A DNA stretch of 32,566 nucleotides from Alphaproteobacteria bacterium (GTDB taxonomy: Bacteria > Pseudomonadota > Alphaproteobacteria > Caulobacterales > Hyphomonadaceae), in NCBI GenBank assembly GCA_018969425.1, contig JAGWYJ010000039.1, forward strand, positions 1-32,566, read 5' to 3'. Position numbers and translations under genes: made by a program. The notes beneath the pieces were generated by a model that did not search any database, had not been told where the DNA came from, and saw only the letters and a program-made list of their open reading frames with translations. Below are positions 2,134 to 17,675 of the stretch, piece after piece. The stretch's first letter is position 1, and each line of letters opens with the position of its first letter.

Positions 2134-2775
2134 TCAGGGGACGAGTGAAGAGAAAAGGGCCTTGAGGGTCGGGTCGTCCGTCTCCGCGGAGATGGACGGC
2201 TCTCCTCCCGGACCCATGCGAAACGAAAGCTGCGCGCGCGCCTGCGAGCCCTCAAAGCCGGCGTCTGAAACAATCAGCCCGTTCAGGCATGCGATCGGGC
2301 CGCGAACGGCCCCGGGAAGCCGTGATCCGTCATCCTCCAGGCGGAATTCGCCACTCGCCTCGAGGCATCCGGTGGACGTGAAACGTCCTGCCCCGCCATT
2401 CACGCGGAGAATCAGGCCCTGAGGAACGTTGGCGAGCAGCCCTGACAGGTCGGTCGCGACGGTGACATTCTCGACCAAAGCGCCCTGACCGTCGACCCCA
2501 ACGCGGAATGATCGCACGGGGCCCGAGGCGGAGACGTTCATCCTGACCATGCCCTGCAGCAGACTGAGGGGATCGAGAGAGAGTTTCATATCGCCAAGCG
2601 CGATCCCGCCGAGGCTGACCGTCGTCAGGGTTCCTGACCAGATGGTTCCGGAGGCGCGGACCACAGACAGCCCGGGGGCCCGCTCCAGGAGAGGCCCGGC
2701 CAACAGGCTGAGGGGAGCAAGGGCGATGCAAAACACGATGAAGGTGACGAGCAGGGCAAGCCAGCGGAGTCCCAT
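2134..2775 (-). CDS. gspN: Type II secretion system protein N (GspN)
   Basis: A 213-residue protein with one N-terminal membrane helix (about residues 5-27) and a beta-rich periplasmic part matching the T2SS N family. Typical features are the 'RASGTIWSGTL' segment after the helix and the alternating hydrophobic strands that follow. GspN is an accessory inner-membrane component found in a subset of T2SS clusters and is always the last gene, as here. Its ATG shares one base with the stop of gspM (TGATG), so it is translationally coupled. It is the end of the long minus-strand operon; only a weak 4-bp stem follows the stop. Confidence 0.85.
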   Translation of the reverse strand: MGLRWLALLVTFIVFCIALAPLSLLAGPLLERAPGLSVVRASGTIWSGTLTTVSLGGIALGDMKLSLDPLSLLQGMVRMNVSASGPVRSFRVGVDGQGALVENVTVATDLSGLLANVPQGLILRVNGGAGRFTSTGCLEASGEFRLEDDGSRLPGAVRGPIACLNGLIVSDAGFEGSQARAQLSFRMGPGGEPSISAETDDPTLKALFSSLVP

Positions 2776-3257
2776 CAGATAAGTCCTTCACTGAGACGGA
2801 TGCGGGCGGTCACTCCGGCGCCGGATGCGCGCTCGATCGTCAGGGCTTCCAGGCTGAGGCCTGTCCGTTCGCCGGCGATCTCGATCCATGCGAGAACGGC
2901 CGCCGACGAGGGTGACGCCAGTGTGATCGCAAGGCCGGCCTCGTCCCGATCCGCGCCCAGGAGCTGAACGCCCGTCTGTGCGGACACCTCCTGCAGAGTG
3001 ATGGTCAGCGCCTCGCCGGCTGCTGAGGCTCTGGCGGCGCGCTGCGCGCGGATCATCGCCGAAAGCGACTGCGCGTCAGCGAGGTCCGAGGCGGCGAGGC
3101 GGCTGCGATCCGAGGCGCTGCGCTCGGCGGCGACCCCTGGAGACCAGAGGCCGTAATACAGCCCCGACGGTATGGCCAGAGCGAGGGCCAGGGCGATGAG
3201 GAGCCGTTCGCGCGGACTGCGCTGCGACCAGCCTTTTTGGATTAGCGAGGACATCAT
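2775..3257 (-). CDS. gspM: Type II secretion system protein M (GspM)
   Basis: A 160-residue bitopic protein. A short cytoplasmic tail (WSQRSPRERLLI) leads into a single membrane helix (about 19-37, LLIALALALAIPSGLYYGLW). An Ala/Arg-rich helical region follows (about 45-85) and then a small ferredoxin-like periplasmic domain. GspM partners GspL in the inner-membrane platform. The start overlaps the gspL stop by 4 nt (ATGA), and a second Met follows immediately. Sequence conservation in this family is low, so the call rests on size, topology and position between gspL and gspN. Confidence 0.85.
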   Translation of the reverse strand: MMSSLIQKGWSQRSPRERLLIALALALAIPSGLYYGLWSPGVAAERSASDRSRLAASDLADAQSLSAMIRAQRAARASAAGEALTITLQEVSAQTGVQLLGADRDEAGLAITLASPSSAAVLAWIEIAGERTGLSLEALTIERASGAGVTARIRLSEGLI

Positions 3258-4336
3258 GGCGCGCTCCGGACCTGGAATTCCAGAAAGTCGGGGCGCTCGG
3301 CGACCGGAGAGACCGGATCCGTCATCTCGGCGCCGGAAGCTGTAAGAGACGCTCGCAAGCCGGAAAAGTCTGTTCCCGAAGCCGCTTCGAGTCGCACCGT
3401 CAGCGCCTCCCCGGCTCGTCCTTCGAGAGCGATCATGCGCACGGAAGGAAGCTTCCCCAGCTCCGCGATCAGGACCCGGCTCAGCGTCGTCACCCGCTTG
3501 CCGTTGAGATGAGAGGTCATCTGCTCGGCCAGCTGCGCCCGGGCGTTCACCAGTTTTGCGCCTGTCGGCAGAGTTCCGAGCGCCAGATCTGCCGCGGCCC
3601 TGCGAAGGGACGCAGCCTGCCCATCCTGACGAATGGCCGAGACCATGGGGATGGCCGCAGTGATCGCCCCGGCGAGGATCAGACCGGCGGCCAGACGCTG
3701 CAGGGCGCCAGCGTGCTTCGAGGCCTCGATCCGGCCGAGGGCCGGATCGAAGTGAAGCTCGGTCAGGACACGTCCCGAACGTATCGCCTCCCGAACGTCC
3801 GTCTCGAGGTCGCGCTCCGCGACGGTCTGCCCGCTGAACAGGATACGGGAGAGATCCTCTTCGCAGGAAAAGCCCCGCTCGGATCCTCTTGCAATGAGCC
3901 TGTCCTCACGCAGGGCCGCTGACCACTCCGATGTTGAGGGCTCCTGTAAAAGACAACATTCGGGCATGATGCGGTCGGGAACAAAGCCCCGTGCGCGGGC
4001 GGCGGCAAGCTGGGCTTCCAGATCCCGCCTTGAGGCGACGCTGACCAGGGCCATGCCCCCGGTCGCCGGTCCGAGGGCGACAACGCATCCCTCAGGCGGT
4101 TCTGCGAGATCGTCAGCCAGATCGAGGAGTGCGGCGGCTCTTTGCTGCGCCGGCGTCTCCCCGCGAAGCGTCATCCGACGGACCGGGCATGTCTCTCCGG
4201 GCGCCACGAGAATGCACAGGCGCCCTTTTCCTGCAGGGGGTCGTTCTGCATGCTGGACTGTTCCTGATGGGGTCGACCAGACATAGCGCCATGCGCCGCC
4301 TGCGACCGGGGGGAGGGCGAGACAGACTGGCGTCAT
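3254..4336 (-). CDS. gspL: Type II secretion system protein L (GspL)
   Basis: About 360 residues. The N-terminal half is the actin-like cytoplasmic domain that docks the GspE ATPase. A membrane helix follows at about 214-232 (LAAGLILAGAITAAIPMVSA), then a periplasmic ferredoxin-like domain ending in LEFQVRSAP. I place the start at the ATG at 4336, whose ATGA overlaps the gspK stop by 4 nt and is preceded by GGAG nine bases upstream. An in-frame ATG at 4351 would add five residues and reach further into gspK. Together with GspM, GspF and GspC it forms the inner-membrane platform. Confidence 0.9.
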   Translation of the reverse strand: MTPVCLALPPVAGGAWRYVWSTPSGTVQHAERPPAGKGRLCILVAPGETCPVRRMTLRGETPAQQRAAALLDLADDLAEPPEGCVVALGPATGGMALVSVASRRDLEAQLAAARARGFVPDRIMPECCLLQEPSTSEWSAALREDRLIARGSERGFSCEEDLSRILFSGQTVAERDLETDVREAIRSGRVLTELHFDPALGRIEASKHAGALQRLAAGLILAGAITAAIPMVSAIRQDGQAASLRRAAADLALGTLPTGAKLVNARAQLAEQMTSHLNGKRVTTLSRVLIAELGKLPSVRMIALEGRAGEALTVRLEAASGTDFSGLRASLTASGAEMTDPVSPVAERPDFLEFQVRSAP

Positions 4337-5322
4337 GGCGCATCGCTCCATCGTCGTGCAATCGGCCGCGCGGCGCCGTCTCTAAGGTCCAGGATTTCGC
4401 TCATCACGATGTCGGCGTCCAGATGGGTGATCTCCGCCGTCAGTTCGATGAACCGGGTCTTCAGACTCAGGGCTTCCATCGCTTCCTGCGGGAGTTCCAT
4501 ACTCCTGAGTTCGCGATGAGCGAAGAACTCCCCAAGACTTTTCCAGCCCTCGGCGGGACGGCTCCTGAGCACTTCCTCCGCTGCGCCTTCAGAAAGTCTC
4601 CCCAGAAGCGCAGCGGACAGGATCCTCGCCTGATCTGGTCTCAGAGTATTGATGCTGAGGGGCGAGGGGCCGGTGACGGGAAGGGTGCAGATATACGGGC
4701 GCAGGAGCGCATAGATCTCTGGTGTGAACCCCCGGATCGCCCGCAGTTCGGAGAGTTCGGAAAGGGGTTCTCCGCCGGTCAGGTATCGTCCTGCGCTCTG
4801 ACGATAGGCGATATCGTCTCCCGTGACCGCCGAACTCGAAGAGGCCGTATCCATCCACGCTCCGAGCGCCGCCACCAGCTCCTCGGCCTGGACGCTGGAG
4901 ATGCCGAGGCCGGTCATCAGTTCGCGCACCTGCGCCGATCCGGTGGGATTGATCGCGTAGATATCGCCCGCGCCGGAGACCACGCTGTTGAGGTTGATGC
5001 ATGAGCCGCCATCAACGGCCGATATCCTCATCAGGCCCTGATCCAGCGGGAAGGTCGCCTGCAGGGGGCCGGCCGCCAGAAGCGCCGTGAGTTCACCGGA
5101 TCGTTCAAGGCGCTGGGCGGATGAACGGGCATAGGCGTCGGCTCCTATGGCCAGCCATTGCGCCTGCATCTGGCTGGACAGGTTGGCGTCGAGACGTTGC
5201 GTTCGTCTCATGGTCTCCATCATCAGGGCGGCGAGCGAGGCGAGGGCGGCGACAATCACCAGCGCGGTCAGCAGGGCCGCTCCGCTTTGGGACGTGGACG
5301 GAAGTGTTCGTGTCGACCTCAT
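4333..5322 (-). CDS. gspK: Minor pseudopilin GspK
   Basis: A 329-residue large minor pseudopilin. The leader ends in SQSG, followed by the hydrophobic helix AALLTALVIVAALASLAALM. Position 5 after the cut is Thr rather than Glu, which is the known peculiarity of GspK. GspK caps the tip of the pseudopilus with GspI and GspJ and lacks the Glu5 needed to dock under another subunit. The bulky domain inserted after the helix contains the INLNSV and SINTL segments typical of the family. Its start overlaps the gspJ stop by 4 nt and its stop overlaps gspL. Confidence 0.92.
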   Translation of the reverse strand: MRSTRTLPSTSQSGAALLTALVIVAALASLAALMMETMRRTQRLDANLSSQMQAQWLAIGADAYARSSAQRLERSGELTALLAAGPLQATFPLDQGLMRISAVDGGSCINLNSVVSGAGDIYAINPTGSAQVRELMTGLGISSVQAEELVAALGAWMDTASSSSAVTGDDIAYRQSAGRYLTGGEPLSELSELRAIRGFTPEIYALLRPYICTLPVTGPSPLSINTLRPDQARILSAALLGRLSEGAAEEVLRSRPAEGWKSLGEFFAHRELRSMELPQEAMEALSLKTRFIELTAEITHLDADIVMSEILDLRDGAARPIARRWSDAP

Positions 5323-5906
5323 GCGCCGCCCCCGGGAATGAGGAAGAGCTGATCGAAGTCGCCGTCAGGCCCGAGATCGATCTGCAGACGCACGGCCCGT
5401 GGAAGGGGCCGTTCGGGAGAGCCTGGCCATCCTGAGACCCATTCATCTCCTTCCAGATAGCTGAGGGTCACAGCCCGAACTCCTGACAGGAGAGGCTGGG
5501 TGGAGGCGGGCGGCGCGCCGTCGACGAACCGGCGGGACCGTCGCTCGATCACGCCTGCCTCGATGCGGTACTCGACGCTCTGCACGTCAGGTCGATCGTC
5601 CGTCACCAGACCATTTGCGCCGCGTCGCACGAGCAAGAGGAAGGACCCCTCACCCTGAAGGCTCCGTCCCTGGAGGGCGGTCTGTGGCTTGCTCCCGTCC
5701 TCGGCCCGGGCTCGCCGGCTGGCCGCCTGAGTGAGGTCGAAGGAGAGCGCAGCCTGCAGACGCACCAGCTCGCCTGTGCGCAGCTCCCGCGTTTCAATCG
5801 TCTCCCGCGCATCCATGGCGTAGCCCGTCAGAAAGACGGATCCGACCGCCAGCAGCGACAGTGCGGCCATGGCGACAAGCAGTTCGACGAGCGAAAATCC
5901 TTTCAT
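5319..5906 (-). CDS. gspJ: Minor pseudopilin GspJ
   Basis: A 195-residue type IV-pilin-like protein with a very short leader: MKG, then FSLVELLVAM. The prepilin peptidase cuts after the Gly and Glu5 is present. The C-terminal part has the GspJ-type segment with VEYRIEAGVIERRSRRF and a final strand rich in charged residues. It belongs to the GspI-J-K tip complex of the pseudopilus. Start and stop overlap gspI and gspK by 4 nt each, implying tight translational coupling. Confidence 0.92.
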   Translation of the reverse strand: MKGFSLVELLVAMAALSLLAVGSVFLTGYAMDARETIETRELRTGELVRLQAALSFDLTQAASRRARAEDGSKPQTALQGRSLQGEGSFLLLVRRGANGLVTDDRPDVQSVEYRIEAGVIERRSRRFVDGAPPASTQPLLSGVRAVTLSYLEGDEWVSGWPGSPERPLPRAVRLQIDLGPDGDFDQLFLIPGGGA

Positions 5907-6277
5907 GGAAGGGCCATGAAGCTGGTCAGATTGAAGACGACCTGTCCCCGGGCCTCGGCCCGAACCTCGATATCAACCCTCAGCATGCCGGCGCCTGGGG
6001 CGGGCGAGACGGTCTGGGTCCATTCGAAGTCCTGATTGAGCGCGCTTTCGCGCCCCTGTGTCCGCCCTTGCGGCGGAGGTGAAAGACGCGCCAGTGTCTC
6101 CACCATCCGGTTCTGTGCGACAAGGCGCGCCAGCACTCGTTCTGAAGCGGCGCCCTGCGCGCGTGCGCCGCCCTCGATGGCGTTGATCATCGCCGCCGCC
6201 GCCAGCGCGACGACAGTAATCGCCACCATGACTTCCAGGAGAGAGAAACCTCTGTCTGCTGCGGGTCTGTCACTCAC
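5903..6277 (-). CDS. gspI: Minor pseudopilin GspI (probable GTG start)
   Basis: A small pilin-like protein. The leader ends in ADRG, followed by FSLLEVMVAITVVALA with Glu5. The remaining ~100 residues fit the GspI family (AQNRMVETL region, then a DFEWTQTV strand and a final VDIEVRAEARGQ strand). I favour the GTG at 6277: an excellent GGGAGG lies six bases before it, the overlap with gspH is only 8 nt, and the leader becomes a normal ten residues, giving about 124 aa. The ATG at 6304 would need a 35-nt overlap with gspH. Confidence 0.88.
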   Translation of the reverse strand: MSDRPAADRGFSLLEVMVAITVVALAAAAMINAIEGGARAQGAASERVLARLVAQNRMVETLARLSPPPQGRTQGRESALNQDFEWTQTVSPAPGAGMLRVDIEVRAEARGQVVFNLTSFMALP

Positions 6278-6767
6278 CGACCGCCTCCCGGAGGATGCGG
6301 CCATCGCCCGTGACGGTAAGGTCGTAGGCGCGCCCGTCTCTGAACAGGGTCAGCCGGGCTCCTTCGGTGAGCCCGGTCGCATCAAACACGATCGCCCCCT
6401 CCGGCCCGCTCTCGCCGATCTGAAGCGATGAACCGGCAACCCAGGGCGTCGGGGTTCCGGACGGATCGAGGGCCGTCCACCCGGCTCGCGTCCTGACCTT
6501 TCGCTCATAGCCTTCTGAGGAGAACAGGACCTGGACCGCCCGGTTCCGGATGAGCGCGGCGTCCCGCGCCCCGGAGATCGAGGCGGCGAGGCGATCGACC
6601 TCGCGCCCCAGCGTCTCGCGTGGCCCGCCCAGGGTCAGCATTGCGCCCGCGGTGATGAGGCCCATGATAAACAGCGCCGTCATCATCTCTATGAGAGAGA
6701 AGCCCTCATCCGCTCGGCGCGGAGTGTTCCTGTCAGGATCGGCGTCTGCGACGAACAGGCTCGGCAT
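6270..6767 (-). CDS. gspH: Minor pseudopilin GspH
   Basis: About 165 residues. A longish leader rich in Asp and Arg ends in ADEG, followed by FSLIEMMTALFIMGL with Glu5. The rest matches GspH: the helix continues through VDRLAASISGARDAALIRNRAVQVLF, followed by beta strands and a C-terminal ILREAVGE. GspH links the pseudopilus tip to the GspG shaft. The start is uncertain. The ATG at 6767 leaves a 5-nt gap to gspG; a TTG at 6776 would overlap the gspG stop by 4 nt, as the other genes in this operon do. Neither has a strong ribosome binding site. Confidence 0.9.
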   Translation of the reverse strand: MPSLFVADADPDRNTPRRADEGFSLIEMMTALFIMGLITAGAMLTLGGPRETLGREVDRLAASISGARDAALIRNRAVQVLFSSEGYERKVRTRAGWTALDPSGTPTPWVAGSSLQIGESGPEGAIVFDATGLTEGARLTLFRDGRAYDLTVTGDGRILREAVGE

Positions 6768-6772
6768 GGCGA

Positions 6773-7261
6773 TCAATCAGGCGATCCAGCAGGTCCGATG
6801 TCGGCATCAAGCCCCGATCCGCCTTCAAGTCCGTCCGCACCCAGCGAACGGATCTCGAACGCCCCGTTTCGTCCTGGGGCCGCATAAACATAGGGCTGCC
6901 CCCACGGGTCGTCCGGAAGTCGACGAATGTATCCGCCTTCCCGATAGAGTTCCGGGCGGCGAAGATCTCCCGGGGCTGTCACCAGGGCTTCAAGACCCTG
7001 TGCGGTCGTCGGGTAGGAGAACATGTCGAGACGAAAACTTTCGATCGCCTGTTCGAGGATCGCAATATCTGTCCGGGCCTTTTCCACCATCGCCTTATCC
7101 CGGCTCGGCAGGACGTTAATCAGGACAATCGTCGACAGAAGGCCGATGATGACGATGGTCACCATCAGCTCGATGAGACTGAAACCCGCTTGACGGCTCA
7201 GACGGCGCCGAGCGTGTTGATCTGCAGGATCGGAAGCAGGATGGACAGGATCACAAGGCAT
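6773..7261 (-). CDS. gspG: Major pseudopilin GspG
   Basis: The major subunit of the T2SS pseudopilus. The leader ends in RQAG, followed by FSLIELMVTIVIIGLLSTIV with Glu5. The mature protein shows the classic GspG signatures: a DIAILEQAIESFRLD helix, the YPTTAQGLEALV motif, the PDDPWGQPY motif, and a C-terminal Ca2+-binding loop with the acidic SLGADGLEGG region. The ATG at 7261 has GGGAGG six bases upstream but lies 64 nt inside gspF, giving a 26-residue leader. The only in-frame codon at the normal overlap distance is a CTG at 7201. The ATG is kept. Confidence 0.94.
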   Translation of the reverse strand: MPCDPVHPASDPADQHARRRLSRQAGFSLIELMVTIVIIGLLSTIVLINVLPSRDKAMVEKARTDIAILEQAIESFRLDMFSYPTTAQGLEALVTAPGDLRRPELYREGGYIRRLPDDPWGQPYVYAAPGRNGAFEIRSLGADGLEGGSGLDADIGPAGSPD

Positions 7262-8409
7262 ACGACGCCTCCCATGATAACGATGATTGCAGGTTCTAGC
7301 AGGCTGAGACCGACCGCGGTCGCCGTCCGGAATTCGCGTTCGAGATAGTCCGCGGCTCTCTCGAGCATCGCCTCCAGGCGGCCGCTCGTCTCGCCGCTCG
7401 CGGTCAGATAGACCAGGAGCGGCGGAAAGACCCCGGTGCGCTTCATGGCGGCCGACAATCCTGAACCCTCGCGCACTGACGTCGCCATCTGCGCCGCCGC
7501 CTGCCGCAGAACGGCGTTTCCGTTGGCGCGGCCGGCAAGTTCGAGGGCTTCGAGAACAGGCAGGCCGCTGGCGATCATCGTTGCAAGTGACCGCGACAGG
7601 TGGGCGGCCTCCACCTGTCGCAGAAGCGGGCCGATGAGAGGGAGCGACAGTGCGATCCCATCCGCCTTAAGTCTGATCGCCGGACGCGACAGGGCCCACG
7701 CGCAGGTGACGATGGTCAGGACGATCACGATGGCGAGAAGCCATCCCCAGTCCACCAGAAATCGTGAGAGGCCGATGATTGCAAGGGTGAGGCCCGGGAG
7801 CTCCTGTCCTGAGACGTTGAACTGGTCGACGACCCTGGGAACGACGAAGGTCATGAGGGCGGTGATCACCGCCATCGCCACCACAGCGAGGACAATGGGA
7901 TAGACCAGAGCGGTCGTGATCTTCGAACGGATCTCCTGCTGGGCTTCCAGAAGATCGGCGAGCCGTTCAAGGATGACCGGCAGCGAGCCGGAGGCTTCTC
8001 CTGCCGAGACCATAGCCCGATAGGTCGCCGGAAAGGCCCGGCCCGAGCGCGTCATGGCGTCCGAGAGGCGCAGGCCCTCGAGAACGCCTGCATGTGTCAG
8101 AGCCAGGACCTTGCGCGACCTGATGTCGGCGGTCTGCTCGGCGAGGGTCCGAAGCGCCTCTTCCAGAGGCGCGACGCTTGCGAGCGTCGAGAGCTGGCGT
8201 GTGATCAGAGCAAGGGATTTCGCCGACAGGCCGGGACCGCCGCCCTGAGCGACGGCTTCGGATCCCGTCCTCGAAACGGCGTGAATGGTGCTGAGTAGAA
8301 GACCCTGAGACTGCAGCAGAGCGCGCAGGGCATCGACATCCGCCGCCGTCAACCTCCGGCGACGGGTCCGGCCCTCACGGTCGATGACGGAGCATTCATA
8401 CGTCCGCAT
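7198..8409 (-). CDS. gspF: T2SS inner-membrane platform protein GspF
   Basis: A 403-residue polytopic protein with two copies of the T2SSF domain. The first begins near LALITRQLSTLASV (about 66) and the second near VEAAHLSRSLATMIASGLPVLEALE (about 272). Hydrophobic segments lie at about 166-195, 222-245 and 370-397. The motif SAGEASGSLPVILERLADLLE in the first repeat and TASGETSGRLEAMLERAADYLE in the second are typical of the family. GspF sits in the centre of the inner-membrane platform and couples the GspE ATPase to pseudopilus assembly. The start lies 14 nt inside the gspE end, with GGGAGG nine bases before it. Confidence 0.95.
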   Translation of the reverse strand: MRTYECSVIDREGRTRRRRLTAADVDALRALLQSQGLLLSTIHAVSRTGSEAVAQGGGPGLSAKSLALITRQLSTLASVAPLEEALRTLAEQTADIRSRKVLALTHAGVLEGLRLSDAMTRSGRAFPATYRAMVSAGEASGSLPVILERLADLLEAQQEIRSKITTALVYPIVLAVVAMAVITALMTFVVPRVVDQFNVSGQELPGLTLAIIGLSRFLVDWGWLLAIVIVLTIVTCAWALSRPAIRLKADGIALSLPLIGPLLRQVEAAHLSRSLATMIASGLPVLEALELAGRANGNAVLRQAAAQMATSVREGSGLSAAMKRTGVFPPLLVYLTASGETSGRLEAMLERAADYLEREFRTATAVGLSLLEPAIIVIMGGVVCLVILSILLPILQINTLGAV

Positions 8410-9883
8410 GGGCGTCCGCCTCCCGCCTCATCAGTCGCGCCGCTTCTTCCGGGCTGGTGACGCCTTCAGTCACCAGAACTCGTGCGCTGTCCGAGAGCCG
8501 GGCTGAGTCTGCAAATGCATGAACCGCCATCTCGGTTTCCGTCGCATTGGCCCCGATAAGCTGACGCATTGTCTCGTCGATCCGCACCGCCTCATAGACC
8601 CCGGTCCGGCCAATGAACCCGGTGTGCCCGCATTTCGCGCATCCGCCGGCCCGCCAGACAGGCGCATCTTCTGCAAGACCGATCAGGCGACCGACAGCCG
8701 CTCCAACGGGTTCGCAGCGCCGGCAGGATGGGCACAGCCGTCGAACCAGTCTTTGAGCAAGAACCATCCGCAGTGTCGAGGCGAGCAGGAAGGGCTCAAC
8801 TCCCATATCTCTCAGACGCGTGACGGCGCCGATAGCGTCGTTCGTATGGACGGTCGAAAGCACGAGGTGCCCCGTCAGGCTGGCCTGTACGGCGATCTGA
8901 GCGGTCTCAGAATCGCGGACCTCGCCGACCAGGACAATATCCGGATCCTGTCGGAGGATGGCTCTCAGACCGGCCGCGAAGGTCAGGCCGACCTTGGTGT
9001 TCACCTGGGTCTGGCCGACGCCGTCGACCGCGTATTCAACCGGATCCTCGATCGTCAGAATAGACCGGGCGCCGTCATTGAGCCGGCGAAGTCCGGCATA
9101 GAGCGTGGTGGTCTTTCCAGACCCGGTTGGTCCTGTGACCAGAACAATTCCATTGGGATCCGCAAGAGACGCCTCGAACGCGTCTCGGATCGCCGTCGGC
9201 ATGCCGAGGTCATCGAGGCCGAGGCCCGCCTTATCCCGGTCCAGAAGTCGCATCACCACCCTCTCGCCGACGCGTGAGGGCAGGGTTGAAACCCGCACAT
9301 CGAGCGCGCGTCCGCCGAGGGTCAGGGAGATACGTCCATCCTGCGGAAGGCGGCGCTCTGCGATATCCAGCCTCGCCATCACCTTGACACGAGAGACCAG
9401 CAACGGACCGAGCCGCGCCGTCAGCCTTGCGGCTTCTCGCAGGACCCCGTCGGTACGCAGACGAACGACGAGGTGGGTCTCATAGGGTTCGATATGTATG
9501 TCCGACGCTCCAAGGCGCGCGGCCTCCGCGATCAGACCGTTGATCAGGCGGATGATCGGAGCGTCGTCGTTTGTATCCAGAAGATCGGCGATCGCAGGCA
9601 TGTCCCCCAGAAGATCCGACAGCCCGCCGGCAAGTCCGGCCGCCTCAGCGTCCTCTATCCCCAGATCGCCTGCAGAATAATGCTCGGACAGCCGCGCTTC
9701 GAAGGCCGCTGCATCGAGCATGCTGACCGCAAGTGGTCCGCGGCTTGCGCGTCGGACCTCGAGCAGCGACATCGGGTCAGCGCCTTCTCGCACGAAGACC
9801 TGAGCGGCCTCCTCGCCGGGCAGCGCAATCACCCCGTTGCGGCGGGCGAACGCGTAGGGAAGAAGAGTTCCGGAACGGGTCAT
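8396..9883 (-). CDS. gspE: T2SS assembly ATPase GspE
   Basis: A 495-residue hexameric ATPase that powers pseudopilus assembly. An N-terminal domain (about 1-100) for docking to GspL precedes the ATPase core. Visible motifs: Walker A GPTGSGKTTT at 251-260, Asp box TIEDPVEY at 277-284, Walker B DIVLVGEVRD at 315-324, His box STVHTND at 343-349, and a zinc-binding tetracysteine motif (Cys384, 387, 415, 418; CPSC and CAKC) as expected in GspE rather than most PilB/PilT proteins. All key residues are present. It overlaps gspD by 4 nt and gspF by 14 nt. Confidence 0.96.
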   Translation of the reverse strand: MTRSGTLLPYAFARRNGVIALPGEEAAQVFVREGADPMSLLEVRRASRGPLAVSMLDAAAFEARLSEHYSAGDLGIEDAEAAGLAGGLSDLLGDMPAIADLLDTNDDAPIIRLINGLIAEAARLGASDIHIEPYETHLVVRLRTDGVLREAARLTARLGPLLVSRVKVMARLDIAERRLPQDGRISLTLGGRALDVRVSTLPSRVGERVVMRLLDRDKAGLGLDDLGMPTAIRDAFEASLADPNGIVLVTGPTGSGKTTTLYAGLRRLNDGARSILTIEDPVEYAVDGVGQTQVNTKVGLTFAAGLRAILRQDPDIVLVGEVRDSETAQIAVQASLTGHLVLSTVHTNDAIGAVTRLRDMGVEPFLLASTLRMVLAQRLVRRLCPSCRRCEPVGAAVGRLIGLAEDAPVWRAGGCAKCGHTGFIGRTGVYEAVRIDETMRQLIGANATETEMAVHAFADSARLSDSARVLVTEGVTSPEEAARLMRREADAHADV

Positions 9884-11850
9884 GGACGGCTCGCCTGCGC
9901 CCCCGGCGAGGGGGCGCCCAGCGCTTCAGTCAGGCTGGCCGTTCCGCTGGCCTCCGTTTGACGACGGACCATGTCCTCGATCTTCGGCGAGGTCGCAGCC
10001 CGGGCGTCGCCGGGAGATTTCAGAATAACAGGACGGATGAACACCATCAGATTGGTCCGGGTCTCATCGCGGGATTCGGAGCGGAACAGGCCTCCGACAA
10101 CGGGAATGTCTCCCAGCACCGGGACTTTTTCCACTCCGAGGCTTTCTCCGCGGTCAAGCAGTCCGCCCAGCACGACCACCTCGCCATTATCGACCATCAC
10201 CGTGGTCTCGATTTCGCGCTTGTTGAAAATGAGTTCCTGGCCGGGAGACAGAGGCGGCACGACGCTCGAGACTTCCTGCTTGAGGAAGAGCGTGATGGCG
10301 CCGTCCGCATTGATCTGCGGTCGCACGCGCAGCTTCACGCCGACATCCTGCCGCTCAATGGTGCGGAAGGGATTGGAGTTATTCTCCCCCAGAACCTCTC
10401 CGGTCGTGACGGGAACCTCCTGGCCGACCAGGATCGAGGCCTCACGATTGTTGAGTGTCAGGATCGAGGGCGTCGACAGAAGATTGGATCCGCTGTCTCG
10501 CCGGACGGCATTGATGATCATCCCGAAAAGGCCGTCGCCGGAGAGGTCGTCGGCGACGCCGGCGACCGCACCGGTCGCACGCGAAATTGACCCGGCCGCC
10601 GCTGTCTGAAGATCCTTGAGGAGGGAGGAGTCCTCAGGCAGGGAGCGTCCCGCCGTTGCGGCGCCGGCGACGGTGAGCAGATTGGGCCGTGCGCCGCTGT
10701 AGGCGGTGGCGAAGAACGGGATCGAGGCGCCATCCTGCCCTGAGAGAAGGAACTGTACGCCGAGGTCTTTGGCGACGCCGTCTGAGACCTCAACCACGAT
10801 CGCCTGGACAAGAACCTGTTCGCTGCGCTTGTCGATCTGGCGGACGATTGTCTCGATCTCTGACTGAACGGTGGGCTCGGCCCGCACGACGATGGCGTTG
10901 GCGCCTTCAAACAGTGCGACGCTGCCCTTTCCCCCGGGGCGCGGAGCGCCCTGCGCGGTTCCGGTTTGCTGGCTGCTGTCCGCCCCCTGACCGAGAAGGG
11001 TCCTGACGAGATCGAGAACTGCCGCCGCATCCGTGTTCTGCAGGAAGATTACCCGTGTGTCGCCGCTCGGCTGAGCCTGGTCGTCGAGCTGCGTGGTGAT
11101 CTCACGCAGCCGGCTTACCGTATCCGAAGGGCCGCGAATGACGAGGGAATTGGATGCCTCGACCGCTGTAAAGCTGGCGGACGACAGCGACTTGGACGGA
11201 TCGGCGCCCGCCCCGGTGATCTCGCGAAGCGCCTCGACCAGGACGCTCGGGCTTGAGTTCTTGAGCCTTACGATTTCGATGACATCCGTATCCCGGTCGA
11301 GATCGGTCACGAGCGAGGCGAGCCGGCGGACATTGTCTGCGAAATCGGTGATGACGATGGCGTTCGCGCGCGGAGCTGCGCTGACCTGTCCGCCTTTGCC
11401 GACCAGTCGTTCGATAACGGGCAGGATGGAGGCGGGATCCCGGGATTTCAGGCGTACCACCTGGGTCACGAAGCGTTCGGCCCCTGGGCCGGAGGGCTGG
11501 GTTGCCCCGTCCTCTCCGGGGGTGATCCGGATCGCTCCCGAGGCGGTGGGCACAGCGATGTATCCGTGCGCCCGGAGAGTGGCGAGAAAAACCTCATACA
11601 TCTGGTCGGAAGAGAGCGCTGCTCCTGAGGCGATGGTGACATTCCCCTGAACGCGGGGATCGATGACGAACGTCTTGCCGGTCATGCGGGAGACGTCCTG
11701 GATCAGGGCCCGGATGTCGGCGCTCTGGACATTGAGGGTCTGCTTACCGTTTTCCTGAGTTCCCGCCATAGGGGCTGTCGACAGGATCAGCGCCGTCGCG
11801 GCGGCGGCCTGCAGGAGAGAGCGCGCCAGGGTCCAGGTCCGCTTCGTCAT
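9880..11850 (-). CDS. gspD: T2SS outer-membrane secretin GspD
   Basis: A 656-residue secretin. Signal peptide at about 1-30. The N0 domain follows (NVQSADIRALIQDVSRMTG, then FVIDPRVQGNVTI), then three KH-like N1-N3 domains with the typical VRLKNSSPSVLVEALREI and RVIFLQNTDAAAVLDLVRTLL repeats. The C-terminal secretin pore has LLSTPSILTLNNREASILVG at about 455 and the signature VPVLGDIPVVGGLFR at about 576-590. No pilotin-binding S-domain is obvious; the last ~40 residues are low-complexity and Pro/Ala-rich. It overlaps gspC and gspE by 4 nt each. Confidence 0.96.
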   Translation of the reverse strand: MTKRTWTLARSLLQAAAATALILSTAPMAGTQENGKQTLNVQSADIRALIQDVSRMTGKTFVIDPRVQGNVTIASGAALSSDQMYEVFLATLRAHGYIAVPTASGAIRITPGEDGATQPSGPGAERFVTQVVRLKSRDPASILPVIERLVGKGGQVSAAPRANAIVITDFADNVRRLASLVTDLDRDTDVIEIVRLKNSSPSVLVEALREITGAGADPSKSLSSASFTAVEASNSLVIRGPSDTVSRLREITTQLDDQAQPSGDTRVIFLQNTDAAAVLDLVRTLLGQGADSSQQTGTAQGAPRPGGKGSVALFEGANAIVVRAEPTVQSEIETIVRQIDKRSEQVLVQAIVVEVSDGVAKDLGVQFLLSGQDGASIPFFATAYSGARPNLLTVAGAATAGRSLPEDSSLLKDLQTAAAGSISRATGAVAGVADDLSGDGLFGMIINAVRRDSGSNLLSTPSILTLNNREASILVGQEVPVTTGEVLGENNSNPFRTIERQDVGVKLRVRPQINADGAITLFLKQEVSSVVPPLSPGQELIFNKREIETTVMVDNGEVVVLGGLLDRGESLGVEKVPVLGDIPVVGGLFRSESRDETRTNLMVFIRPVILKSPGDARAATSPKIEDMVRRQTEASGTASLTEALGAPSPGAQASRP

Positions 11851-12593
11851 GGTCGGCTCCTTGAGGTATGGGTGATCATGGCCTGGCCGGCCCGCTCGAA
11901 ACGGATCTCAACAGGGGAGGCGGCCATGAGCGCGCGCTCGAAATCCGCTTGCTCGAGGCTGGAGGCCGACTTCCGGTCAATTTGCGTAATGATGTCGCCG
12001 TCGCGAAGGCCGGTCCCGCCGAGCTGTGAGGTCCTGCCCGACAGGACAATCCGGAGGCCTTGAGATCCGCCCGACGTTTCCGTCGGCAGGAGGCTCAGCC
12101 CCGCTATCGTCAGAGCCGGCGGCTCGGGTGGGGCAGAGAACGCGGTGACTATCGACGCTTGAGGAAACGCGATGGTCACCCGACCCGATGGTCCTTCGAG
12201 GATGACATGATCGGGAGCGATCGATACCAGCCGCAGGCCGGGCGCCGCTTCCTCTCCCAGTAGCACCAGCCTTTGGGCGCCTCCGGGAGGCGCAAGAATG
12301 GCTGACCCGCCGTCCGCGCCTGCTCTCACAGCCTGCAGAGTAAAGCCGGATGCGTTCGCAGCCGGCGCCATCGGCATGGCGCCTCGGTTGAATGGATCGT
12401 CCGCCAGGGGGGCTGACGGCGCCGTCACAGAGGCCATGACGGTTCTTGATGGACGAAAAATCGGAACAGGAGCGAGGGCGGTCCACACCATCATGGCGCC
12501 GGCTGCCGACAGAGACACGATCCAGAATGAATCAAGCGCGACGGCAAGGCCGTCGCGCCGAACGCGCTCCGCTAGAGGCTCAAACCGCTTCAT
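11847..12593 (-). CDS. gspC: T2SS inner-membrane protein GspC (HR and PDZ domains)
   Basis: About 248 residues from the ATG at 12593, which is preceded closely by AAGGG. An in-frame TTG at 12653 would read back into the receptor stop codon and is rejected. One membrane helix at about 23-41 (FWIVSLSAAGAMMVWTALA). A Pro-rich linker follows, then the homology-region domain that contacts the GspD N0 domain (GSAILAPPGGAQRLVLLGEE through GRVTIAF). A C-terminal PDZ domain at about 175-240 carries the GLRDGDIITQIDRK motif; PDZ domains in GspC help select substrates. It opens the gsp block, 56 nt after the receptor gene, with a hairpin in that gap. Confidence 0.93.
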   Translation of the reverse strand: MKRFEPLAERVRRDGLAVALDSFWIVSLSAAGAMMVWTALAPVPIFRPSRTVMASVTAPSAPLADDPFNRGAMPMAPAANASGFTLQAVRAGADGGSAILAPPGGAQRLVLLGEEAAPGLRLVSIAPDHVILEGPSGRVTIAFPQASIVTAFSAPPEPPALTIAGLSLLPTETSGGSQGLRIVLSGRTSQLGGTGLRDGDIITQIDRKSASSLEQADFERALMAASPVEIRFERAGQAMITHTSRSRP

Positions 12594-12602
12594 CACACCC
12601 TT

Positions 12603-12638
12603 CGTCGCTTCCTCTCCTTTATAGAGGAGGGAGCGACG
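12603..12638 (-). promoter_or_regulatory. Hairpin between the TonB-dependent receptor gene and gspC
   Basis: In the 56-nt gap the mRNA can form a stem from CGTCGCT and AGCGACG (perfect 7-bp outer arms at 12603-12609 and 12632-12638), with further CCTC/GAGG pairing inside. It ends about 9 nt before the gspC start and abuts its ribosome binding site. No T-run follows, so it is not an intrinsic terminator. An RNA-processing or stability element, or one that controls gspC translation, is more likely. Confidence 0.45.
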
Positions 12639-12649
12639 TTCGCTATAGG

Positions 12650-15316
12650 TCAATAGGCCGTGGAAAGTCCGAAGCTGATGGATCGGCCAAGATCATACTG
12701 ATTGATGATGATCTCGCCCCCGCCAAACGACTGACGCTCCACATAGTTCTCGTTGAGAAGATTGCCGGCCTTGACGCTTGCCGACACCTCGCGCCCTCCG
12801 ATTTCGAAGGTTTTACGGTAAACAAGATCAAGGATGATCCCCGGCTCCTGAATGTAATCGGGCTCGCCCGGTCGACCCCGCGCTGAGGATCTCTCGGACA
12901 CATAGGTGGCGATGAGGGTCGCCTGGGAATTCGCAGCGTCGTCCTCATATCCAAGCTGAAGATTGACCACGTGCTCAGACTGACCCTGAAGGCGGGAGCC
13001 GTCGACGATGTAGAGGGTGGCGTCAGCCGGATCTCCGCCCTCGCTGATGGGGTAGACCACGTCGCCAGCCTCAGCTGTCACCTCAGAGTTTGAATAAGTG
13101 TAATTCCCCTGAATGAGGAAGCTCTTTCCCTTGAGTAGGGCGCTGTCCGGGAAGGGATCGTCGAAGATGGACTTGAGCTCGATTTCAGCCCCGTAGAGGC
13201 GCGCCTCCGGAGCGTTTAGATAACTCTGCTGGATCGTGGCTCCCTGCTCGACGACAACCGACTCGATAGGGTTGGTGATCGTCTTGTAGAAGGCGCCGAG
13301 CGTGAAATACTGCTGATCGGCGAAGAAGAACTCGTAACGGCTGTCGACATTGAGCAGCTCGCTGTCCTTGAGGTAGGGATTGCCTACAAACAGCCGGTCG
13401 CTGTCCGGGTCGAGATACTGCTGCGGCGCCAGTTCCCGGAACTGGGGACGGGCGATCGTCTGCGACGCCCCGAAGCGGATCTGCTGATCCGGAGCGAAGT
13501 TCCAGGTCAGCGTCGCCGCCGGAAGGAGATAATCCTTCTCAATGGCAGGGGGCTGATCCGGCGTCCCCTCCACAGAGAAAAGGTTGCGGGGCGAGACAAA
13601 CTGCCGTCCCGACTCGGCTCGAAGGCCCAGCGCCGCCCTTACATAAGTGATCGGCTCGAAGTCCGCCTTGATGTAGGCCGATGACACCTCAAGCCCGGCG
13701 TCGTATGCGGCTGCGCCGTCCGACGCCGTCGTCTCCCGAATGACAAGGCGGCCCGGATTGATATTGTAGTCAGCGAAGAGGTAGTCGACGCGCGTCTGCT
13801 GAACGGCCAGCGGGAGGCCTTCGGCCACAAAGCGGAATGAGCGTGCCTCTGAGGACCGCGTATTGTCCGAATAGTCGAGTCCGCCGGAAATGACCGTATC
13901 CTTCGCACCCGCCCGCGGGATGGCGTAGGCAAGGTCGATGCCGAAGTTCTGAACCTTATCCGAGAGCTCGCTGAACGAAAGCCGGTTGGGCGCACGCGAG
14001 GTATCGTGAAGATAACGGTCGATGGAATCGTCAAAAAGGTAGCGAATCTGACGCTCGTAGGGCGCGTTTCGCGATGTCTCGGCAAGCGCCGCGCGCCAGC
14101 TCAGCGTGAACGGCTCAAAATCATGGCTGCCGCGGAGCTGTGTCGACAGAAGCTCCCGCTCATACCAGGCGGTGCGGTCGTCCCGTACATCCTCACCCGC
14201 CAGTTCGTCGAAGCCAAAGCGCACATAGGTCTGCTTGGTCGTGCGGCGGATCCACAGATTGGTCCAGTCGATCGTGTGGCGGCCAAACTCGACGCCCGCT
14301 CCGAAGAGACCATCCCAGCCGACCTTGTTGTCTGTCGAGGTGTAGTTGTAGTCAGACTTGGGCGTGATCACGCCTCCATCGATCCGGCCTTCCTGCTGGA
14401 TCCCGTCCTGCGTCTCCCAGTCATTGGCGTAGCCAAGCACTCCGATGACGCCGATGCTGGCGCCGCCGACATCCCAGCGATACCCGCCGCTGAGGTCCGC
14501 ACTCCCGTTGGCGGGAATGGAATGATTGACCTGGACAAGATTGGTCTTTGCATTTTCGAAGCTCTGTCCGATGCGCTGCAGCTGCGCAGGTGTGAAATTC
14601 GAGCCATTTATGCGCTTGCCGGTAGCAAGCGCCTCGCGCAGCTGCCCCGGCATCTTGCGAACGCCATCGTCGAACCCGAAGCGGTCCGCCTCGCCGCCAT
14701 TATACGTGTAGCCTGTCTCGAAACTCGTTTCCGAGTTGGCGCTGACGCCGACACCAACCTCGAGGAAGGGGTAATCAGGAAGGTTGAGTGTGGAAAGCTC
14801 GATAACCCCTCCGCCGAACTCCCCCGGAAACTCGGCTGAGTAGGACTTCTGGACCATCACCCCCTGAAGGATGCTGCTCGGAAACAGATCCAGCGGAACC
14901 ACGCGCTGGAGCGGCTCCGGGCTGGGCAGGGGAGACCCGTTGAGGATCGCTGACGAGTATCGCTCGCCAAGTCCGCGGACATAGACGAACTTTCCTTCCG
15001 CGATGCTGAGACCCGTAACGCGCGTCAGGGCCTCGGCGGCGTTGGAATCGCCCTGTCGTTCAAGATCGAGATTGCTGAGAAACTGAGCGACCTCAGAGGT
15101 CTCCTGGAGTGGCTCAGGGATGTAGGATCCGAGAACCCGGATAACGTCCCCTCCCTCGGAGTCGGTTGCCGATGCTTCGGGCGTATCGGCCTGCGCGGAC
15201 GCCGCCGGAGCCGGAGGAACCGCTTCCTGAGCAAAGGCCTGACCGCCGGTCAGCGCGGACGTCGCGAGCAGAAGAGCGCTCAGGGAGAAGCTGTAAGCAG
15301 TCATGGGCAACACCAT
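12650..15316 (-). CDS. TonB-dependent outer-membrane receptor linked to T2SS
   Basis: An 888-residue outer-membrane receptor. Signal peptide (cut after QAFA), then a Pro/Ala linker and a TonB-box-like DVIRVLGSYI (about 57-66). The plug domain at about 75-180 has NAAEALTRVTGLSI, FVYVRGLGERYSSAILNG and an EFGGGVIELST end motif. The rest is a 22-strand beta barrel with RPQFRELAP, YLKDSELLNVDSRYEFFF and the terminal strand GRSISFGLSTAY. It lies 62 nt downstream of the beta-helix lipoprotein gene and 56 nt upstream of gspC, on the same strand. Receptors of this kind import scarce ligands using TonB energy. The ligand is unknown; the Pho-box context suggests a phosphorus-containing compound (inference). 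The start could also be the ATG at 15304. Confidence 0.92.
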   Translation of the reverse strand: MVLPMTAYSFSLSALLLATSALTGGQAFAQEAVPPAPAASAQADTPEASATDSEGGDVIRVLGSYIPEPLQETSEVAQFLSNLDLERQGDSNAAEALTRVTGLSIAEGKFVYVRGLGERYSSAILNGSPLPSPEPLQRVVPLDLFPSSILQGVMVQKSYSAEFPGEFGGGVIELSTLNLPDYPFLEVGVGVSANSETSFETGYTYNGGEADRFGFDDGVRKMPGQLREALATGKRINGSNFTPAQLQRIGQSFENAKTNLVQVNHSIPANGSADLSGGYRWDVGGASIGVIGVLGYANDWETQDGIQQEGRIDGGVITPKSDYNYTSTDNKVGWDGLFGAGVEFGRHTIDWTNLWIRRTTKQTYVRFGFDELAGEDVRDDRTAWYERELLSTQLRGSHDFEPFTLSWRAALAETSRNAPYERQIRYLFDDSIDRYLHDTSRAPNRLSFSELSDKVQNFGIDLAYAIPRAGAKDTVISGGLDYSDNTRSSEARSFRFVAEGLPLAVQQTRVDYLFADYNINPGRLVIRETTASDGAAAYDAGLEVSSAYIKADFEPITYVRAALGLRAESGRQFVSPRNLFSVEGTPDQPPAIEKDYLLPAATLTWNFAPDQQIRFGASQTIARPQFRELAPQQYLDPDSDRLFVGNPYLKDSELLNVDSRYEFFFADQQYFTLGAFYKTITNPIESVVVEQGATIQQSYLNAPEARLYGAEIELKSIFDDPFPDSALLKGKSFLIQGNYTYSNSEVTAEAGDVVYPISEGGDPADATLYIVDGSRLQGQSEHVVNLQLGYEDDAANSQATLIATYVSERSSARGRPGEPDYIQEPGIILDLVYRKTFEIGGREVSASVKAGNLLNENYVERQSFGGGEIIINQYDLGRSISFGLSTAY

Positions 15317-15377: not shown

Positions 15378-16871
15378 TCAGCAGGAGGTCCCGCCGGTCA
15401 GGCCGCAACTCCAGGTCTTGTACCAGCTCACCGCACTGTCGCTGACCGCACCGATCTTGGTCGGCGTTGTCAGGAAGGTGGATCCGGCGTGGTTGACCGG
15501 CGCGGTGACCGTCACTGCGTTTTCGTTGGTTCCGTTGATGAAGGTACCCGACAGGCTCGAGGTTCCGGCCGAGGTGTTGTTCGCTCCGGCGTTGAACACC
15601 GCCGCCGTCTCGGTGAGGTTGCCATCATCGCGGAAGGGCGAGGTGCAGCTGAAGAAGACCGAGTTGAAGGTCGGAGCTGCGGTGATGGTGTCTGCATCAT
15701 CGATGTCGAGGCAGGCGCTGGTTCCGGTCTTCACCACGATCGAGTTCCAGAGCTTGATGCCATTGCCCGAGTTGATGACCATCGCATCGGAGGTTGAGGA
15801 GCGTCCGATGATTGTCGCATTCGAGATGCGGGGGATGGTGTTCAGCGAGAAACCGCCGGTGACGGGGGTTCGGGTTCCCGCAGAGCTGAACTCAAATCCA
15901 CGGTCGCCGCCATTGGCGCGCTGAACGATCAGCACGTTCTGGACGGCTCCGCGCCAGCCGGTGTCGACATCAAGACTGTCGTCATCATTGCCGGTCAGGA
16001 TGATGTTCCGCAGGTTGACCGTACCGCCGAAGACCTCGATCCCGTCGTCGGAGGAGTTATGGACCTGAACGTTTTCGATCGTGGTTCCGTTTCCAACCCC
16101 GGCGAGCGTGATGCCGTTGAGCTCGTTATTGGGAAGGATCTCGAAGCCCGAGTGCTGAACCCGCACAAAGCTCAGACGGCCGCTGTTATCCGCCGGCGTA
16201 TTGCCGCCGTAGAAGGCGTTGGTGCCCTCGACCTGAGCCACGCAGGCGATATTCGGCGGCGTCACCCCGCTAGGGCATCCCGCTGAGGTCGGTGCGCGGC
16301 CCAGGATTACGAGACCGCCCCACTGTCCGATCGAGTCGACGGTCGTCGATCCCTCGATGCCCTGCCGGCTGGTGAAGATAATCGGATCGGCGACAGTGCC
16401 GACGGCGAAGATCTGCGAGCCACGGTTGACCACGATGTAGTCAAGGCCGCCCGAGCCGAAAATGCGGACGCCCGGGTCGACGGTCAGAATGCCCTGGCTG
16501 CCCCCCGCGGCGGGAGAAGAGGGGTCTGCGCCGAGATCGACGCCCACGTTCACGCGGCCGCTGATCGAGTAGATCGTGCCGTCGCGCTTGGGGATCACGA
16601 AGTTGCCAGTGATCGTGCTCGGCAGCTGACAATTGCGGAGGCTGGAGACCACGCCGACATTGTTGAAGCCCGAGGGGCAATCAGCCGCAGGGCCGGCGGG
16701 CGGCGAGGGCGGCGGGGGCGGCGGGGGGGAAGGCGGGGGCGAGGGAGGAGGGGAAGGAATGAAGACGCCTTCTCCAGGGGAGGCGACGCCGTCGCTCCCG
16801 GAGCAGGCTGCGGCGCCGGTGACGGCGAGGCAGGCCAGTAGGGCCGCCCGGACGGCTTGGTTCGATGACAT
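15378..16871 (-). CDS. Putative surface lipoprotein, Pro-rich linker and right-handed beta-helix domain
   Basis: A 497-residue exported protein. The start at 16871 has GAGGGAG seven bases upstream and begins directly with a signal peptide (MSSNQAVRAALLACLAVTGA) ending at Cys23 in a weak lipobox (GAAAC). Residues about 35-58 are an almost pure Ser/Pro linker. The rest (about 65-480) has short repeating strands rich in Gly, Asn, Val and Ile: GILTVDPGVRIFG, IGQWGGLVILGRAP, TIENVQVHNSSDDGIEVFGG, LRNIILTGNDDDSLDVD. These look like rungs of a parallel beta-helix of the pectate-lyase type. The C-terminus is SWYKTWSCGLTGGTSC. It is the first gene after the Pho-box array and is followed by the receptor and the T2SS, so it is the prime candidate substrate of that T2SS. 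Enzymatic function is not known; carbohydrate or polyphosphate binding is speculative. Confidence 0.8.
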   Translation of the reverse strand: MSSNQAVRAALLACLAVTGAAACSGSDGVASPGEGVFIPSPPPSPPPSPPPPPPPSPPAGPAADCPSGFNNVGVVSSLRNCQLPSTITGNFVIPKRDGTIYSISGRVNVGVDLGADPSSPAAGGSQGILTVDPGVRIFGSGGLDYIVVNRGSQIFAVGTVADPIIFTSRQGIEGSTTVDSIGQWGGLVILGRAPTSAGCPSGVTPPNIACVAQVEGTNAFYGGNTPADNSGRLSFVRVQHSGFEILPNNELNGITLAGVGNGTTIENVQVHNSSDDGIEVFGGTVNLRNIILTGNDDDSLDVDTGWRGAVQNVLIVQRANGGDRGFEFSSAGTRTPVTGGFSLNTIPRISNATIIGRSSTSDAMVINSGNGIKLWNSIVVKTGTSACLDIDDADTITAAPTFNSVFFSCTSPFRDDGNLTETAAVFNAGANNTSAGTSSLSGTFINGTNENAVTVTAPVNHAGSTFLTTPTKIGAVSDSAVSWYKTWSCGLTGGTSC

Positions 16872-16961
16872 GGGTCTCTCCCTCGGAACATGGTCCGACC
16901 AGGAAGGAGACGCCCTTGTGTCAGGTCGCCCTTGCTGGTCCATGGGAGGTCGTTAACGTCT

Positions 16962-17005
16962 TTTGACGACGCTCTTTTGACAGTTGTATGACAGTTTTGT
17001 TTCAG
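16962..17005 (-). promoter_or_regulatory. Pho-box array (PhoB binding site) upstream of lipoprotein/receptor/T2SS operon
   Basis: On the minus strand, 16994-16977 reads CTGTCATACAACTGTCAA, which agrees with the PhoB consensus CTGTCATAWAWCTGTCAY at 16 of 18 positions. The 11-bp repeat continues on both sides: CTGAAACAAAA at 17005-16995, CTGTCATACAA at 16994-16984, CTGTCAAAAGA at 16983-16973, and a decayed GCGTCGTCAAA at 16972-16962. This 7+4 tandem layout is how PhoB dimers bind. The array overlaps the prepilin peptidase stop codon and ends about 90 nt before the lipoprotein ATG. In PhoB-dependent promoters the box replaces the -35 element; no strong -10 is evident. Confidence 0.8.
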
Positions 17006-17556
17006 TTGTAGGGAAGACCGGTCAGCCAGAGGATCCAGATTCCGGCTGCGAGAAATGGCCCAAAGGGAAGAGCCGTCTGTGGTTCCCAGCGCGTATTAAT
17101 CATTGATTTAATGATAAAAAACAGGATACCGGCGAGGGCGGCGATCAGGCAGATGAGGGGCAGGGCGCTCCAGCCCAGCCAGGCGCCGCCCGCGGCGGCA
17201 AGCTTGGCGTCTCCCCGGCCGAGCCCCTCGCGACCCCGCAGGTGTCGATAGAGTGTCTCGAGAGAGGCCAGCGCCAGGTATCCTGCGACACCGCCGATGA
17301 TCCGCGTGATCAGGGAAGGTTCGACGCCGAGCGTGCTCAGTCCCAGCCCGAAAATCACGAGGCCGATGGTCAGCTCGTCCGGAAGAATCATCCGGTCGAT
17401 GTCGACGAAGGCGGCCCAGGCAAGGCTGAAGGCAAGGATAGCGCCCGCAGGAGCAAGTCCTTGAGGGCCAAGAACGAGCCCGCTCAGGGCGGCGAGCGCG
17501 CCGACGCCTATGGCGGCGAGTGCGAGTCCCGGGGGCAGGGCCAGAGACCCTTTCAT
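17002..17556 (-). CDS. Prepilin peptidase (A24 family, short form lacking N-terminal domain)
   Basis: About 184 residues from the ATG at 17556, which has GAGGGGAG six bases upstream. It is an intramembrane aspartyl protease of the A24 family: about six hydrophobic segments, first catalytic Asp in FVDIDRMILPD (Asp52), second in the GRGD motif of GLGRGDAKL (Asp116). The N-terminal cysteine-rich methyltransferase domain of full-length PilD/GspO (about 270-290 aa) is absent, as in CpaA/TadV-type and some alphaproteobacterial T2SS peptidases. Its place directly upstream of the T2SS unit suggests that it processes GspG-K. Its stop codon is embedded in the Pho-box array, so it is transcribed from its own promoter and may read through. 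Confidence 0.9.
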   Translation of the reverse strand: MKGSLALPPGLALAAIGVGALAALSGLVLGPQGLAPAGAILAFSLAWAAFVDIDRMILPDELTIGLVIFGLGLSTLGVEPSLITRIIGGVAGYLALASLETLYRHLRGREGLGRGDAKLAAAGGAWLGWSALPLICLIAALAGILFFIIKSMINTRWEPQTALPFGPFLAAGIWILWLTGLPYN

Positions 17557-17602
17557 GTGATTCTCCCCTCGTTTCGACACTCTGGAGCGTGTGCGGGCGT
17601 CC

Positions 17603-17632
17603 TTGTCACCTCCAGTCAGCCGAGACTAGCAT
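17603..17632 (+). promoter_or_regulatory. Candidate sigma-70-type promoter of the S9/M28 peptidase operon
   Basis: TTGTCA (17603-17608) and TAGCAT (17627-17632) are separated by 18 nt. Transcription would begin near 17639, about 37 nt before the ATG at 17676. This supports that start over the in-frame ATG at 17637, which would sit at the transcription start itself. Confidence 0.45.
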
Positions 17633-17675
17633 TGGCATGCCGCGGACGCAGCGGCGTCTGAGGAGATTCGGCGGT

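Follow-up and report, generated by a model that had tools for sequence, protein, structure and literature searches.

A predicted PhoB-dependent promoter before an ElpS-type lipoprotein, TonB receptor and type II secretion operon in a Hyphomonadaceae bacterium

A set of type II secretion system (T2SS) genes in an alphaproteobacterium of the Hyphomonadaceae lies behind a tandem array resembling a PhoB-binding site, raising the question of whether phosphate starvation switches on this operon and, if so, for which of its genes the switch is meant. The whole stretch of DNA analysed, hereafter the window, is 32,566 nucleotides long. The original prediction was that an entire T2SS would be turned on by PhoB from this array. 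Judging from sequence comparisons, we consider it very likely that the window site is a PhoB-activated promoter, to which PhoB would bind and at which it would induce transcription, and we rate control of the whole T2SS by PhoB lower than PhoB control itself.

The window site and the operon behind it

The 18-mer CTGTCATACAACTGTCAA occupies positions 16994-16977 of the minus strand and comprises the half-sites CTGTCAT and CTGTCAA at a spacing of 11 bp. The PhoB consensus of E. coli is CTGTCATAWAWCTGTCAY, and a recount against it (a consensus of E. coli and not of the host) confirmed the proposed match at 16 of 18 positions. The surroundings had been described as three clear repeats and one decayed; the tandem 11-bp array is indeed there, but just two of its half-sites are clear (7/7 and 6/7 to the half-site consensus) and the other two match at 4/7. 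The site and its genes are arranged as follows:

16999..17005, minus strand: weak upstream repeat CTGAAAC (4/7), absent as such in the congeners G001 and G006
16988..16994, minus strand: Pho half-site 1, CTGTCAT (7/7), identical in G001, G006 and G002
16977..16983, minus strand: Pho half-site 2, CTGTCAA (6/7), with CTGTCA retained in G001, G006 and G002
16966..16972, minus strand: decayed half-site 3, GCGTCGT (4/7), in phase with half-sites 1 and 2
16952..16957, minus strand: proposed -10 element GTTAAC, whose TA lies at offset 39 counted from where the array starts; G001 and G006 have an identical CGTTAAC
15378..16871, minus strand: ElpS-type surface lipoprotein of 497 aa, start at 16871, parallel beta-helix model
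12650..15316, minus strand: TonB-dependent receptor (Pfam PF00593, PF07715)
2134..12653, minus strand: T2SS genes gspC, D, E, F, G, H, I, J, K, L, M and N (Pfam and NCBIfam)
17002..17580, minus strand: gspO, prepilin peptidase (Pfam PF01478), upstream on the same strand

The gspO stop codon TGA (17004-17002) falls within the repeat CTGAAAC (17005-16999), which probably lies outside the site. The motif CTGTCATNNNNCTGTCA has a single exact match within the window (11 matches with up to three mismatches, against 5.7 expected), and this is also its single exact match in the whole genome of 3,245,086 bp. Three further sites differ at one position (contigs C9, C21 and C64), and no phosphate gene was recognised at them from reading of their open reading frames. 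When the 400 bp before the lipoprotein gene were subjected to 200 dinucleotide shuffles, none matched the box as well.

Pfam and NCBIfam searches bore out the lipoprotein-receptor-gspC-N unit as first described, GspL scoring under its Pfam cut-off and over its NCBIfam cut-off. The set includes the secretin, ATPase, platform and pseudopilins (gspC-N) and the prepilin peptidase (gspO). The receptor and gspC genes overlap in the window, and no terminator-like site was found between the lipoprotein and receptor genes. Lipoprotein loci in named genomes (best 80 of at least 592) came from Hyphomonadaceae, Caulobacter, Brevundimonas, Phenylobacterium, Asticcacaulis and also Xanthomonadales; within these best 80, the receptor follows the lipoprotein at all 74 loci that are long enough, and gspD and gspE follow at 53 of 65. 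Beside gspO, on the plus strand (17520-21310), lie genes for an S9 peptidase of dipeptidyl peptidase IV type and an M28 peptidase; because the pair recurs, among the same best 80 of at least 592 loci, only at the same-species locus L150, these peptidases are no regular part of the operon.

The idea of a conserved 5' leader fold was rejected, since the window leader folds no better than its shuffles (z -0.64) and double changes in 14 Brevundimonas-type leaders affected 4 of 13 predicted pairs, which is insufficient. Rfam returned one match, under its gathering score. A possible stem-loop lies near the 5' end of the leader (16869-16945, minus strand), and several Caulobacteraceae leaders carry a G-rich block near their 5' end that pairs further on.

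The lipoprotein had been thought to be of a beta-helix type different from ElpS, a distinction not borne out here. Over 491 aa it shares 55% identity with the protein heading the corresponding operon in C. vibrioides T5M6 (locus L176), where receptor and gspC-F genes follow; this identity rules out a type distinct from ElpS, provided that the T5M6 protein, which is the sequence compared, is taken as ElpS (CC0170) from its species and gene order. No Pfam or NCBIfam family was found for the lipoprotein. Its predicted model is strand-rich (mean pLDDT 84), and a Foldseek search with it gave no match under E 0.001; the weak matches listed are largely beta-helix proteins. Since the window lipoprotein is of the ElpS type, the beta-helix model would speak for that type as a whole. 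A lipobox-like AAAC could be read by eye near residue 23 of the window protein. By the same kind of reading the T5M6 lipobox cysteine is residue 23, against residue 20 in the portion of PMC2996285 drawn on here, so that the ElpS start sites may differ. In many relatives (G008, G014, G017, G019, G020, G027, G043, G044 and others) the lipoprotein is about 930-1060 aa long, being an in-frame tandem duplication with two copies of the domain, compared with roughly 500 aa for the window protein.

Conservation and decay of the array

Lipoprotein matches were found in 52 of 61 genomes searched, the window's own included, and 45 of these contributed 400-bp upstream regions, after removal of G003 and G018 (contig ends) and of G005, G009, G013, G029 and G042 (weak or partial matches). 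The two-half-site box was present with up to two mismatches in 14 of the 45 regions, against 0.14 expected from shuffles, and with up to three in 25, against 1.8. At the named loci (best 80 of at least 592), a count made without shuffles gave a box with up to three mismatches within 350 bp at 30 of the 75 that had enough upstream DNA.

Three CTGTCA half-sites at a set spacing were then scored in 112 regions with 300 shuffles each. The regions comprised 44 of the 45 above (the near-identical G002 was dropped) and 68 of the 80 named loci (best 80 of at least 592), leaving out L150, L158, L159, L171, L173, L179, L181, L187, L189, L199, L206 and L223 as same species, cut sequence, redundant or doubtful. 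They are partly non-independent, since certain named loci and numbered genomes represent one and the same genome, and 105 are distinct. At a spacing of 11, p<=0.01 was reached in 41 of the 112 regions and the other 71 fell short of it, while the control spacings of 9, 10, 12 and 13 gave 1, 1, 1 and 0. A further control with the reversed motif ACTGTC (34 of 112 at p<=0.01) was discarded as invalid because the reverse of CTGTCA itself contains CTGTC, a flaw that in part also affects the backward control used when the genome was scanned. The arrays with p<=0.01 were distributed as follows, the group labels being assigned from record names and L169 (Rhizobium by name) being counted under Xanthomonadales:

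Own genus 6/8, with a genus-mate locus 1/1; named Hyphomonadaceae 2/2; rest of the family 3/17
Caulobacteraceae loci 16/38; Hyphomonas 0/3
Four further families (f2, f3, f4 and f5) 1/5, 3/4, 3/4 and 3/6, respectively
Xanthomonadales 2/22; others 1/2

Within the order, five families each have one or more members with the array ahead of the operon, and its support beyond the order is thin. In 48 of the 105 distinct regions an array scored at least 13/18, and in 29 of these 48 the dinucleotide TA falls at offset 39 from the array start (background 0.025), often within the -10-like contexts CTAAG, CTAG or CTATAA. The original prediction had named a lack of conservation of the repeats in related genomes as grounds for giving it up, and the reading survived this check with its 41 of 112 regions at spacing 11. 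A chance resemblance is hardly credible: the 13 specified bases are expected about 0.1 times in such a genome (an estimate with equal base frequencies), which leaves some room for accident, and the conservation, the spacing controls and the position of the -10 all contradict it.

Comparison within the genus bears on the imperfect half-site. The congeners G001 and G006 carry CTGTCATTTAACTGTCAGGTGACTGTCAT followed by CGTTAAC at the position equivalent to that in the window, and their half-site 3 reads CTGTCAT, whereas the window and G002 both read GCGTCGT there. Since G001 and G006 keep CTGTCAT at this place, the array probably once had three half-sites, of which the third, adjoining the -10, would have decayed in the lineage of the window and in G002. 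A Pho box is expected to replace the -35 element, one of its half-sites lying some 11 bp ahead of the -10. Relatives show this layout in 29 of 48 arrays; in the window the half-site at that place is decayed. In 54 arrays selected for a -10 TA, at least five of six bases are kept at half-sites 1, 2 and 3 in 72%, 20% and 81%, respectively, compared with which the window is unusual in keeping 6, 6 and 3 of 6. The middle half-site of these arrays is thus poorly kept relative to the outer two, which lie 22 bp apart.

The loss of the third half-site may have weakened the window promoter. Whether it went further, leaving a decayed promoter of weak or no activity through loss of the half-site nearest the -10, has to be weighed: the base changes shared with G002 lie in what is the best kept half-site of other arrays, but half-sites 1 and 2 of the window fit the box better than the one before pstC does (0 against 2 mismatches) and GTTAAC has been retained. 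We hold such a loss of function to be distinctly unlikely.

Pho-type sites in the genome and the target of the proposed switch

In the window's own genome, phoR, a box with two mismatches, pstC, pstA, pstB, phoU and phoB stand in one row (pstA, pstB and phoU were named by reading), and its PhoB clears the NCBIfam cut-off. Among relatives, pstC could be identified by similarity at 10 of 20 phoB loci; a box with up to three mismatches occurs at 8 of these 10 and at 12 of 29 pstS loci, and in 10 of these 20 pst boxes the last half-site and TA are as far apart as in the operon arrays. No box with up to three mismatches was found just before the genome's own pstS, which starts 35 bp behind another gene.

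When the whole genome was searched for a pair of half-sites together with TA, allowing one mismatch, five places emerged: phoX, pstC, the window site and two without a suitable gene. The window site was counted there only at the cost of a mismatch at TA, its -10 being displaced by one more half-site. The pstC and phoX promoters resemble that of the window in having TGTCA half-sites 11 bp apart and differ from it in that TA stands 11 bp after their last clear half-site, whereas that of the window comes after the decayed third half-site. At the two places without a suitably placed or oriented gene (L256:7384 on contig C43 and L258:3167 on contig C91), the pattern has 0 and 1 mismatch, respectively, and the latter precedes a TonB receptor gene read in the opposite direction. 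Both phoD genes have the pattern with two mismatches shortly before their likely starts, and the N-termini of PhoX and PhoD read as twin-arginine-like signals.

PhoB control is well supported by the conservation of the array, the spacing controls, the fixed -10 and the similar sites before pstC, phoX and phoD. Regulators of the OmpR type can bind tandem sites, and the array could accordingly be used by another member of that group, for example ChvI. The sites before pstC, phoX and phoD speak against any such regulator, and ChvI was rejected on its published C. crescentus consensus, TTGC-N3-GCAA in the part of PMC9731502 used here, which is unlike CTGTCA repeats; we regard this alternative as very improbable.

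Under PhoB control, phosphate shortage would place phosphorylated PhoB on the tandem CTGTCA half-sites 11 bp apart, from where it would recruit RNA polymerase to the -10 at 16957-16952, with a transcript predicted to start about 74 nt before the lipoprotein gene. The transcript would encode the ElpS-type lipoprotein and the TonB receptor and would probably continue through gspC-N, since no terminator was seen between them. PhoX and the two PhoD phosphatases, with their twin-arginine-like signals and similar Pho sites, would be the likeliest T2SS clients.

The position of gspD in relatives bears on which of these genes the switch belongs to. By comparison of coordinates by eye, with gspD searched at E<=1e-60, the gene follows the lipoprotein closely and in the same orientation in 30 of 45 relatives, nearby but divergent in 2, elsewhere in 7 and at a contig edge in 1; at that threshold it was not found in 5 of the 45 (G011, G038, G046, G053 and G054). 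Four of these five reach p<=0.01 for an array (the exception, G046, has p 0.09), which argues that the switch goes with the lipoprotein and receptor, the T2SS thus coming under it where it is attached. Of the predicted PhoB switch for an entire T2SS, control by PhoB stays very likely, but its being specific to the T2SS fails.

A stronger form of this separation is that the Pho promoter matters for lipoprotein and receptor only and that the T2SS, having a constitutive promoter as well, undergoes no true phosphate switch. T2SS production in C. crescentus is regarded as constitutive in the sections of PMC2996285 considered here, where gspE and gspL expression is seen in rich medium and rises 1.7-fold in poor medium, and the lipoprotein can occur without gspD or with it elsewhere or divergent, as counted above. 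On the other side, the portion of PMC11208175 (2024) relied on here includes the C. crescentus T2SS in a set of 47 genes that PhoB controls directly or indirectly, and the window has its receptor/gspC overlap and no terminator-like site between lipoprotein and receptor. We consider a T2SS wholly outside the switch rather unlikely.

A possible, if tentative, account of the arrangement is that the Pho-controlled unit is the lipoprotein-receptor pair, an old surface module for phosphate acquisition in which the beta-helix lipoprotein would hand a phosphorus-containing ligand to the TonB receptor. The T2SS may then have been added downstream of it, which would place the release of Tat-exported PhoX and PhoD under common control with the pair, and some lineages would have dropped the T2SS and kept the switch.

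Relation to known phosphate-controlled secretion systems

Direct PhoB targets of C. crescentus were reportedly listed by Lubin et al. in 2016. Phosphate control of an ElpS-receptor-T2SS operon was previously known from one laboratory species. A single promoter type, with 11-bp half-sites and a fixed -10, would offer a sequence test for deployment of this operon at phosphate exhaustion in environmental bacteria; the analysis also sets the lipoprotein-receptor core apart from the T2SS and puts forward PhoX and PhoD as candidate T2SS clients.

The promoter-operon arrangement of the window is already known from Caulobacter. According to the parts of Le Blastier et al. 2010 (PMC2996285) cited here, the order elpS-receptor-gsp is found in C. 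crescentus and similarly in three other species, and C. crescentus ElpS is made at low phosphate, its release then depending on the T2SS. The C. crescentus order of elpS (cc0170), the TonB receptor gene cc0171 and gspC-N, as given in excerpts of PMC2996285 and PMC11208175, equals that of the window, and in those same excerpts the lipoprotein is phosphate-repressed (PMC2996285) and the T2SS belongs to the PhoB regulon (PMC11208175). The two differ at gspO, which is upstream on the same strand in the window and downstream of gspN in the opposite orientation in C. crescentus (PMC2996285, same excerpts). C. vibrioides T5M6 has GTGTCAC and CTGTCTT 22 bp apart and TA at the same distance as in other arrays, its intact half-sites being 1 and 3, whereas those of the window are 1 and 2.

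For P. aeruginosa, the portion of PMC9769906 used here describes an increase of the Hxc T2SS and its phosphatases when phosphate is limiting, likewise a low-phosphate T2SS alongside secreted phosphatases, in another host group and with other clients (LapA and LapB). Given the C. crescentus and Hxc precedents, phosphate control of a T2SS is nothing new in kind, the nearest example being the orthologous operon of C. crescentus.
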